Positions 894 to 3,877 of a DNA stretch of 64,000 nt are shown here, one piece after another. A program made the translations under genes and the position numbers. Position 1 is the stretch's first letter. Every line of letters starts with the position of its first letter. The notes under the pieces were generated by a model. That model did not search any database and was not told the origin of the DNA. It worked only from the letters and a program-made list of their open reading frames with translations. Source of the DNA: Kocuria sp. TGY1127_2 (GTDB taxonomy: Bacteria > Actinomycetota > Actinomycetes > Actinomycetales > Micrococcaceae); contig NZ_AP022834.1 in the NCBI RefSeq assembly GCF_013394385.1, positions 620,001 to 684,000 on the forward strand, written 5' to 3'.

Positions 894-1478
894 GTGCTGA
901 TCTCAGACCACGACATTCGCCAGGACATTGAGCGCGGACGCATACAGCTGGATCCTTACGATCCTTCGATGATGCAGCCGGCAAGCATCGACGTTCGCTT
1001 GGACAGGTACTTCAGGCTCTTCGACAACCACAAGTATCCATACATCGACCCTCGGGAGGACCAACCCGAGCTGACTCGTTTGATCGAGACCAAACCCGGG
1101 GAACCGTTCATCCTGCACCCCGGAGAATTCGTTCTCGGCTCTACCTACGAGCAGGTCACTTTGCCCGACGACATCGCAGCCCGCTTGGAAGGAAAATCCT
1201 CGTTGGGGCGTCTCGGGTTGCTGACCCACTCGACCGCTGGATTCATCGACCCCGGCTTTTCGGGGCATGTGACCCTCGAGCTGTCCAACATGGCCACATT
1301 GCCGATCCTGTTGTGGCCTGGGTCCAAGGTTGGTCAGCTGTGCTTCTTCCGATTGAGCTCGCCGACGGACCACCCGTACGGTTCCGGGGCCTATGGGAAT
1401 CGCTACCAAGGCCAACGGGGGCCGACAGCCTCACGGAGCTATCAGAATTTCCACACCACCGACGTATTCGGGAGTTAG
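894..1478 (+). CDS. dcd: dCTP deaminase
   Basis: The 194-residue protein has the family hallmarks KSSLGR (101-106) and [13 protein letters not shown] (112-124), with the catalytic glutamate in TLEL at E129. It deaminates dCTP in the cytoplasm to supply dUMP/dUTP for thymidylate synthesis. Several actinobacterial homologues are bifunctional and release dUMP directly; that cannot be settled here. The GTG start at 894 has no good ribosome-binding site, but a TATTCT hexamer at 882-887 sits where a -10 box would make the message leaderless. A small gap separates it from the next gene at 1488. Length is normal for the family. Confidence 0.95.
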
Positions 1479-1487
1479 AAACAGACA

Positions 1488-2759
1488 ATGACCGAGACCC
1501 TTGTGTTTACCATGAGGGCTATGGGGGCGGTCGTCGACGTTTTCGCTCAATCCGATGTGTCCAGTCGATTCATCGAATCCTTGGTCGCATCCTGGGCGGA
1601 TTGCAAGCCGCAACGCGCCTCTTCGCCCACGTCCGACCCCATTCCGGGTCATGTGACCATCGCTCTGGTCACGGAGGACCGTCCTTTCCATCAGCTGGCT
1701 GAAACGGCTGGGCAGCCTATTTCGGCGGTCGTGGTCAGTGACGCTGATATTGCCACCGCGGCCCAGGAATTCACCTCATCGGTGACTCTCGCTCTGATTC
1801 GGCATCACGTCGTGGAGTTACATCTTTTTCATTCCGCGTCGTTGATGAATCCGGAAACCGGCGAAGTCGTCGCACTCGTAGGGCCCTCTGGACGGGGCAA
1901 GACTACGGCAGCTCGGGCTCTTGCCCGGAACGGCTGGGTTTATCTGAGCGATGAGACCTGCGCGATCGACCCGAATACCCTACGAGTCTTTCCGTATTCC
2001 AAGCCGCTTTCAATCATTCGGCAGCCAGGCGAGCCCAAAGCGCAGATCGCCGCTTCGGAGCTGGGCCTGCGCACCGTGGCGAAAGCGAGGGAACCCGAGC
2101 CCAGGCTCGCGCACATCGTCATTCTGCGGCGCGAAAGCGAGCTGTCCGCGGCAAGCAGCAACCTCGAGTTGGGCAGTAGCGGCGAACGAACGGAATCCGG
2201 CCAAGGCGTCAGCAATATGCCGTTGCTGAACGGGCTGCAGGCTCTGGCGGAACAGTCCTCCGGACTGGCCCGTACGCCCGATGGTCTCCGAGGCCTTGCG
2301 CTTCTGGCCGACCGAGTGGGTGGGATCAGGGCCGTGGATTATCGGGAGGCGGCCGACCTCCCCGCACTGCTGTCCGAGCTCGCCGGTCAGCCTCCTTCCG
2401 CCGAGGAGTGGAGATACTTTCCTCCGGCGGAACCGTATTGGGACGTGCCGGATCCGCAACTTCCCGAGACCAGACCAGAGTCCAGCGGGCCGGTCGAAAA
2501 TTCGGGTACTTTTGCCCGGAACAGTCATGTTTGCGGAATCGGCACTGAGGACGGAGTCCTGCTGATGCACGTGAACCGAACGGTCATTTACACGAGGCTC
2601 GGTGCAGATCTCTGGATCGAGGCGGAGCGTGGAAGAACGCGACAAGAACTCGAGAACAAACTGAGCGAGACGTACGGCCCTCCTCCGGAAGGTGTCTTCA
2701 ACCGGATACTTTCGGACATCGTCAACGATAAGACCGTTATTCGAGTCGACGCGCGATAG
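1488..2759 (+). CDS. HPr-kinase-like P-loop protein fused to a PqqD-like domain
   Basis: The 423-residue protein has a central P-loop, GPSGRGKTT at 132-140, followed by YLSDETCAID and a Pro-Tyr-Ser-Lys-Pro-Leu segment, the pattern of HprK-related kinases that act on peptides or proteins rather than classical HPr kinase. About residues 335-420 read as a PqqD-like domain (GVLLMHVNRTVIYTRLGADLW, helix, TRQELENKL), the fold that binds precursor peptides in several RiPP pathways. Residues 1-110 are not recognised. The ATG lies 9 nt after dcd, and the MauE-thioredoxin gene follows 35 nt later. No radical-SAM enzyme, cyclase or precursor gene is visible nearby. The domain calls are inference from motifs; the function is unknown. 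Confidence 0.6.
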   Translation: MTETLVFTMRAMGAVVDVFAQSDVSSRFIESLVASWADCKPQRASSPTSDPIPGHVTIALVTEDRPFHQLAETAGQPISAVVVSDADIATAAQEFTSSVTLALIRHHVVELHLFHSASLMNPETGEVVALVGPSGRGKTTAARALARNGWVYLSDETCAIDPNTLRVFPYSKPLSIIRQPGEPKAQIAASELGLRTVAKAREPEPRLAHIVILRRESELSAASSNLELGSSGERTESGQGVSNMPLLNGLQALAEQSSGLARTPDGLRGLALLADRVGGIRAVDYREAADLPALLSELAGQPPSAEEWRYFPPAEPYWDVPDPQLPETRPESSGPVENSGTFARNSHVCGIGTEDGVLLMHVNRTVIYTRLGADLWIEAERGRTRQELENKLSETYGPPPEGVFNRILSDIVNDKTVIRVDAR

Positions 2760-2794
2760 CGTACGGCTCCGCACATCGAATCGGAGAAATCAGC

Positions 2795-3877
2795 ATGACC
2801 GCACTTGTCTTTCCGGCCCTGATTCTTGCCGTCGTCCTGTGGGTTTCAGGGCTCGCCAAGCTCCGTGACCCTAATGGCGTTGCCGCGGCGTTCAAAGACC
2901 TCAAGGTGCCATCGGCCCTGGACCGACCGTGGCTACGATCCGCATTCCCCTGGGGCGAGATCGCTCTCGGTGTTCTTCTTCTCGTGACGCCTGGCTGGTT
3001 GGCCCCGGTCGTGGCCTTGATTGCCTTCGCTCTGTTCGCAGCGTATTGGGCCTTGATATATCAGGCCCTGGGCTTCGATCAGCCCGTCGCGTGCAATTGT
3101 TTCGGAAAGGCCAATTCGGATCCTGTGACCCACTGGACGCTGTGGCGCAATACAGGGCTTGTTCTTCTTTCTGCTTTCTGGCTCGTCGCGTCATTCTTCA
3201 CATCATCGCCCGGGCTGTTTGCCCAAGCCTCGGGCAACGATCTCCTGTGGATCGTGGGACTTGCTTGTGGTGCGGGGATCCTCTTTCTCGCGATCTCCCC
3301 GGCATCCCGCCGCGCCGCGGAAGCCAAACGAGCCTCCGCCCGGCAGCACCATCCGGTTGAGGGCCCGGACGCCGCAGTGTCGCCCACCCAACCGGTTTCC
3401 GCTGAGGACGACGACGCCGAGGAATACGTGCGGCATCCGATTCCCGGGGTCGTCGTCAAGAACTCCGAGGGGGAACTCGTCGCACTCACGCGTTTGGCCT
3501 CGGCTCAAGCGCGCCTGCTCCTTTACATCTCGCCCGGTTGCGGTTCATGTGCGGAGATCATCGCCTCCGCACCGGAATGGGCCAAGGCCCTGGGCCCATC
3601 GGTTGGGGTCCACCTGGTCACCGGGTCGCGCAAGGAGATCCTGGAGACGGTCGCCGACGCCTCGCTCTGGGACTCGGCCCTATACGACGTCGGCGACTTC
3701 ATGGGGGGCTTGTTGGGCTTGACGGGAACCCCGAGCGCCGTCCTCCTGGGGGCCGACGGCCTGCTCGCCGGTGGCCCGGTCAATGGTGCACCGGACATCA
3801 CCATTTTTGTCCAGGACATCCAGGATGAGCTGGAAGCCGCGCGGCAAGAACCAAGCCCCCGGCAAGAACCAGCATGA
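2795..3877 (+). CDS. MauE/DoxX-type membrane protein fused to a thioredoxin-like domain
   Basis: The N-terminal half (about 1-170) has four or more membrane segments and a CNCFGK motif with cysteines C100 and C102, typical of MauE-type redox membrane proteins that pass reducing equivalents across the membrane. A charged linker of about 50 residues follows, then a thioredoxin-like segment with YISPGCGSC (C249, C252) and a conserved proline in GTPSA near 311. The likely role is disulfide exchange at the membrane. It follows the kinase/PqqD gene by 35 nt with the same orientation, so the two are probably co-transcribed. The last 80 nt overlap the convergent transporter gene. Confidence 0.75.
   Translation: MTALVFPALILAVVLWVSGLAKLRDPNGVAAAFKDLKVPSALDRPWLRSAFPWGEIALGVLLLVTPGWLAPVVALIAFALFAAYWALIYQALGFDQPVACNCFGKANSDPVTHWTLWRNTGLVLLSAFWLVASFFTSSPGLFAQASGNDLLWIVGLACGAGILFLAISPASRRAAEAKRASARQHHPVEGPDAAVSPTQPVSAEDDDAEEYVRHPIPGVVVKNSEGELVALTRLASAQARLLLYISPGCGSCAEIIASAPEWAKALGPSVGVHLVTGSRKEILETVADASLWDSALYDVGDFMGGLLGLTGTPSAVLLGADGLLAGGPVNGAPDITIFVQDIQDELEAARQEPSPRQEPA

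Follow-up and report, generated by a model that had tools for sequence, protein, structure and literature searches.

Linear polyphosphorylated peptides (LPP), described for the lpp cluster of Paenibacillus alginolyticus (Nat Commun 2026), are made from a precursor with the motif YxxPxVLxHQxIxFETxxS; the proteins that act on it are an HprK-like kinase, an RRE, an NTP transferase and a signal peptidase (PMC13381572). The kinase phosphorylates the core residue Ser3 (PMC13381572), which we take to be the last Ser of the motif. LPP are stated to be restricted to Bacillota, and the motif bound by lasso-type RREs is given as WxxPx[LVIFA], i.e. [Y/W]xxPx[LVIFA] (PMC13381572). HprK homologues also modify Ser in the lasso peptides paeninodin and pseudomycoidin; in the latter, a kinase and a nucleotidyltransferase phosphorylate Ser and add a hexose (PMC8498205, PMC9266682). 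The HPr-rel-A system pairs an HprK-related kinase (TIGR04352) with a PqqD-family protein (TIGR04353). Maturation of methylamine dehydrogenase involves the membrane protein MauE and a thioredoxin-fold partner, MauD, and disulfide formation in this enzyme has been proposed as the task of MauE (cited in PMC7794033).

The window, the whole stretch of 64,000 nucleotides analysed here, is from Kocuria sp. TGY1127_2 and encodes an HprK-type kinase fused to a PqqD-like domain, followed by a MauE-thioredoxin fusion (MauE-Trx) (Table 1). The name Rothia is used as shorthand for the genus; the named relatives are Kocuria sp. 36, Rothia koreensis and Kocuria massiliensis. It is probable that the two proteins belong to an actinobacterial LPP-like maturation system for exported proteins bearing a conserved signal, termed AWSVP; no step has been shown biochemically.

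Table 1. Features of the locus, with positions in the window.
Feature	Position	Strand	Basis or remark
dcd (dCTP deaminase)	894..1478	+	Pfam DCD E 1.3e-46; context only, not proposed as a member of the system
HprK/PEPCK-fold kinase with C-terminal PqqD-like (RRE) domain, 423 aa	1488..2759	+	
Walker A GPSGRGKTT, kinase residues 132-140	1881..1907	+	G135, G137, K138 and T140 invariant (alignments A1, A3)
Acidic catalytic-type motif DET, kinase residues 155-157	1950..1958	+	D155 and E156 invariant (alignment A3)
PYSKPLS motif, kinase residues 169-175, diagnostic of the kinase clade	1992..2012	+	K172, P173, L174 and S175 invariant
PqqD-like/RRE domain (predicted), kinase residues ~341-421	2508..2750	+	Model, hhalign, Pfam in homologues
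MauE-thioredoxin fusion, 360 aa	2795..3877	+	Pfam MauE, thioredoxin structure matches, invariant cysteines
CNCFG redox motif of MauE domain, residues 100-104	3092..3106	+	C100, C102, F103 and G104 invariant (alignment A4)
CGSC active site of thioredoxin domain, residues 249-252	3539..3550	+	C249 and C252 invariant (alignment A4)

The kinase fulfills the criteria for an HprK/PEPCK-fold protein, which are a Walker A motif, a following acidic pair and the fold itself. The HprK-related P-loop reported by the first-pass annotation is present, and Foldseek searches with an AlphaFold2 model of the protein (pLDDT 84, pTM 0.83) returned PEP carboxykinases and the HPr kinases 1ko7 and 1knx as the top PDB matches. 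The HprK-type DET and PYxKPLS motifs after the P-loop are near-invariant among 19 kinase homologues. A Pfam search with the window kinase gave no Hpr kinase family among its results, and the sequence is remote from HPr kinase/phosphorylase. All 19 homologues match the NCBIfam profile HprK_rel_A (TIGR04352) weakly; the window kinase reaches 34.8 bits in a partial match, far below the curated cut-off of 200, and is therefore a member of a separate clade. Unlike the HPr-rel-A system, the PqqD-like domain is fused to the kinase.

Judged by sequence and by its model, the C-terminal domain is a PqqD-like RRE, as had been claimed; that it binds a leader is inferred, without binding data. Its comparison with neighbouring discrete PqqD proteins gave an hhalign E of 3e-7, Pfam PqqD was found in 7/23 kinase homologues (best E 3.4e-7), and the order of three strands and three helices in the AlphaFold2 model corresponds to the wHTH-like PqqD topology. 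The window kinase on its own had no Pfam PqqD match at E 1. One homologue (L053) lacks the fused domain and has a discrete PqqD-like gene next door instead. At other loci (L090-L093, L098) a discrete PqqD gene lies beside a kinase that already bears the fused domain.

MauE-Trx also proved to be the fusion that the first reading described. The observed features are conserved throughout the genus and outside it, which excludes chance. The MauE domain (PF07291) is recognized by Pfam with an E of 7.9e-22 (78.4 bits against a gathering score of 27), and the thioredoxin domain resembles TlpA/ResA/DsbE structures, with the CxxC at the start of helix 1. In contrast to MauE and MauD, the two parts are joined in one chain, no mau cluster was seen at the locus, and the protein is associated with AWSVP proteins.

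The first-pass annotation had suggested a search of homologue neighbourhoods for a recurring small gene. Near kinase homologues of other genera a gene was found repeatedly that encodes an exported protein with the signal RR...AWSVP...AAS. A profile of 12 signals (A2) was seeded with kinase-adjacent genes of 10 genomes and searched genome-wide. The profile favours proteins encoded near kinases because of this seeding; most of the matching genomes, all Rothia included, were not seeds. The signal has the form RR-x7-W-xx-P-x8-P-x4-S at the N-terminus, with essentially fixed spacing. Across 90 signals aligned on the W (position 0), RR lies at -9/-8, a hydrophobic residue at +5, and P+3, P+12 and S+17 are conserved in 90/90, 89/90 and 88/90, respectively; four further profile hits lack the W. 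Three signals of this kind at one locus (L147 in genome G460; positions 2412, 4247 and 6353), all within ~7 kb of the kinase, have L or I in place of W, and co-variation of RRE and leader is possible. The signals meet the Tat criterion, [S/T]RRx[hydrophobic]xK followed by a hydrophobic region and A-x-A; on this motif alone the RR region fits Tat export, which is inferred, not shown. The invariant Ser may in part reflect the peptidase site. No curated NCBIfam or Pfam family was found for this signal class, and nothing was found in the literature on MauE with PqqD, on an HprK-related kinase with PqqD, or on the string GAAWSVP.

The AWSVP proteins are exported proteins of about 100-580 aa. The window genome encodes four convincing ones (contig C1, positions 60256, 860817, 1556580 and 1763177), none closer than 239 kb to the kinase gene. 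A fifth, weak match (L106, C1:262573) lacks the W and was taken as an ordinary signal peptide. The idea that the kinase recognizes a peptide or protein encoded elsewhere thus gains support, since its presence tracks that of exported proteins with an RRE-type motif, which in this genome are encoded far from it; their phosphorylation is inferred. It is hardly credible that the kinase instead tailors a true lasso peptide or another small RiPP whose precursor is hidden nearby. HprK-like kinases and PqqD-like RREs are known in such pathways (PMC8498205), but the recurrent partner is a full-size exported protein, no cyclase or B2 protease was seen at the loci examined, and the candidate Ser lies where the mature protein begins, unlike the C-terminal Ser of the lasso peptides. 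ORF inspection confirmed that the gaps of 9 and 35 nt contain no small gene, and a small precursor in these gaps was rejected. A lasso or radical-SAM pathway was likewise rejected, with no such gene at the loci examined.

Kinase and AWSVP proteins occur in the same genomes. In a sample of 295 Micrococcaceae genomes, AWSVP proteins are encoded by 79 of the 82 with the kinase and by 6 of the 213 without it (p 2e-60). AWSVP proteins are present in 85 of these genomes and neither component in 207, leaving three kinase-only and six AWSVP-only genomes as exceptions, and the two components occupy the same 14 of 32 genera. The order-level sample of 396 genomes gave 80/85 and 6/311 (p 8e-70; AWSVP total 86), with AWSVP in 25 of the 26 kinase genera and in no genus alone. 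These p values come from Fisher's test, which ignores phylogeny, and the genomes are not phylogenetically independent; nor are the family and order values independent of each other, because the samples share genomes. Full scans of the six AWSVP-only genomes of the order-level sample found no kinase. In an exhaustive re-search of AWSVP-only genomes, G114 had kinase fragments in two reading frames, G135 a C-terminal portion only, G130 a partial and unconvincing match, and the remaining ones none. Both G114 (remnant in L129, ~1406-2098) and G135 (remnant in L130, ~1504-1794) retain AWSVP proteins and MauE-Trx. One Rothia genome that is 87% complete (G003) has AWSVP signals, and no kinase was found in it.

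The two components are also linked on the chromosome outside Rothia. Of the 21 non-Rothia kinase genomes, 11 have an AWSVP gene no more than 5 kb from the kinase, where 0.28 would be expected (P 2e-17), and the six genomes with a single AWSVP gene all have it beside the kinase. Arrays of ~7 AWSVP genes surround the kinase in two genomes of family f9 (L149, L150), and six of the genes in L150 are within ~4 kb downstream of the kinase. The arrays span ~1.9-17.8 kb in L149 (G639) and ~9.9-17.7 kb in L150 (G413), with Wzc-like and LMW-PTP-like genes upstream. Rothia genomes have ~1-13 AWSVP matches each, scattered, and none is beside the kinase at the loci examined.

Such linkage could arise without function if kinase and AWSVP genes merely belong to cell-surface or exopolysaccharide islands that are acquired and lost as units, neither acting directly on the other. 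In non-Rothia genera of the family, genes for Wzc-like, NTP_transf_5, LMW-PTP-like, discrete PqqD and signal-peptidase proteins are found near the kinase, and many of these kinase genes have Wzc-like, NTP_transf_5, LMW-PTP and other polysaccharide genes next to them, which favours this explanation. We nevertheless regard it as quite improbable. In Rothia the kinase gene has a fixed place immediately downstream of dcd (in the window and at 18/18 other loci examined) while the AWSVP genes are dispersed, and still three genomes (G004, G018 and G024) lack both. There the kinase site is empty, dcd being followed directly by MauE-Trx (G018, G024) or by an MFS gene (G004); MauE-Trx itself is truncated in G004, and its match in G024 falls in two reading frames. 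Moreover, the same genera have kinase and AWSVP proteins, and the signal bears a published RRE motif. dcd was rejected as a functional partner, as it is absent from the non-Rothia kinase loci examined. An LMW protein-tyrosine-phosphatase-like match (E 5e-39) is present in the window on the minus strand from ~22.8-23.0 kb onward, ~20 kb from the kinase.

Co-occurrence, linkage and the RRE motif are equally compatible with recognition alone. Dedicated signal-binding chaperones exist for Tat substrates, and the protein could be a chaperone or gatekeeper that, once bound to the AWSVP signal, governs the timing or targeting of export at the expense of ATP, leaving no phosphate on the exported protein; any phosphorylation would be of itself or of a regulator. 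That the match to characterized HprK families is remote also suits such a role. This explanation is considered unlikely, given that the Walker A motif, D155-E156 and other core positions are invariant, as expected of an active kinase, and that the invariant Ser lies at a fixed spacing from the RRE motif. The HprK-like relatives that work with an RRE in LPP biosynthesis phosphorylate a Ser at a comparable position (PMC13381572).

The involvement of MauE-Trx rests on separate evidence. MauE-Trx is present in 70 of the 295 Micrococcaceae genomes, and 62 of these 70 also have AWSVP proteins (p 3e-35). In 13 cases, from several genera, its gene is 0.3-0.8 kb from an AWSVP gene, and in family f11 it lies within 300 bp of the kinase (L145, L146). 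Of mature AWSVP proteins from genomes with MauE-Trx, 41/47 have at least two Cys, as opposed to 5/25 from genomes without it (p 2e-8), and the cysteine counts are mostly even. This comparison is confounded by lineage. The proposed tie to a redox relay is borne out to the extent that MauE-Trx tracks AWSVP proteins and their cysteine pairs; the association suits a client-specific thiol/disulfide role, and the redox activity itself is inferred.

The reading of the two genes as one module holds only in part. They are adjacent only in the window's clade and in a small number of other lineages. The pair is not fixed: 21 genomes have the kinase and AWSVP proteins without MauE-Trx, and a fixed operon was rejected. 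Within Rothia, MauE-Trx directly follows the kinase in the window's clade only; elsewhere in Rothia it mostly lies beyond dcd, at a distance of 0.7-6 kb and in some cases divergent. A methyltransferase gene is often beside MauE-Trx in other Rothia. The window has a SAM-dependent methyltransferase gene at 5-643, of a kind that adjoins MauE-Trx in many other Rothia too. This variable placement, together with the 21 genomes above and seven that have MauE-Trx with neither kinase nor AWSVP proteins, leaves room for MauE-Trx to be an unrelated general thiol-redox enzyme brought next to the kinase by rearrangement. That possibility remains open but doubtful when set against its co-occurrence with AWSVP proteins, its proximity to AWSVP genes and, in family f11, to the kinase, and its relation to cysteine content.

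The preferred reading, an LPP-like maturation system, draws on several features shared with LPP: an HprK-like kinase, a PqqD-like RRE, a [Y/W]xxPx[hydrophobic] motif and an invariant Ser by the cleavage site. The distance from Y to S is 18 in LPP and that from W to S is 17 in AWSVP, and the C-termini of the clients are variable in both. Outside Rothia, NTP transferase and signal peptidase I genes are often near the kinase, as in LPP, and location in a polysaccharide locus is frequent. NTP_transf_5 is found above the Pfam cut-off at several non-Rothia loci. No NTP_transf_5, discrete PqqD or signal peptidase gene is beside the kinase in the window.

The system is nevertheless not classed as LPP, because it failed the tests for a discrete RRE, the full precursor motif and an archaeal-type peptidase. 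The RRE of LPP is discrete, whereas that of the window is fused to the kinase, with an extra discrete PqqD at some non-Rothia loci. YxxPxVLxHQxIxFETxxS is absent in its full form from AWSVP signals, and only the WxxPx[LVIFA] core and the Ser are common to both. There is no archaeal-type (SipW-like) signal peptidase beside the window kinase, and the peptidases of other genera show a Ser-Lys box of bacterial type. In several genera an S26 signal peptidase of bacterial type is encoded right next to the kinase (L086, L087, L089, L095, L096, L101, L103, L104 and L142) and could be the dedicated leader peptidase; the S26 peptidases beside kinases of other genera have a K-R-V-I box, as read from their sequences. 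Unlike LPP, the AWSVP leader is itself an RR-type export signal, the clients are full-size proteins, often several per genome and unlinked to the kinase in Rothia, no MsbA-like exporter was seen, and MauE-Trx is associated with the system. RRE-guided HprK-like modification in a new, actinobacterial variant describes it best.

Because they are inherited together with AWSVP proteins across many related bacteria, the kinase and MauE-Trx probably mark and fold these proteins, although they are encoded elsewhere in the genome; this has not been shown biochemically. The PqqD-like domain of the kinase would bind the WxxPx[V/I/L] part of the AWSVP signal in the cytosol, and the HprK-type domain would use ATP to phosphorylate the invariant Ser at +17 from the W, a residue at or close to the N-terminus left by cleavage. 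Export would follow, probably by the Tat route because of the SRRxxxK motif, with cleavage of the signal inferred around A-x-A/S. In lineages whose AWSVP proteins bear cysteines, MauE-Trx may carry out thiol-disulfide exchange on them on the outer side of the membrane. A sugar could be attached to the phosphate by the NTP_transf_5 protein whose gene is often close by outside Rothia, in line with the proposal for pseudomycoidin. In the window genome the four convincing AWSVP proteins would be the likely clients.

The chances are about even for a more specific proposal, in which the export signal doubles as a RiPP-type leader: the fused RRE-kinase would read the WxxP and phosphorylate the N-terminal Ser, in some lineages helping to glyco-phosphorylate it, and MauE-Trx would oxidize the cysteines of whole exported proteins. 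If true, an export signal that is also a RiPP leader would define a general system for marking surface proteins in the Actinomycetales rather than a pathway for peptide natural products. The results name a previously unnamed conserved class of export signal and provide a candidate substrate class and phosphosite for a widespread uncharacterized kinase family. They also suggest that MauE-thioredoxin fusions may have a role beyond methylamine metabolism. The RRE-kinase principle known from small modified peptides would thereby extend to full-size exported proteins and to the Actinomycetes.
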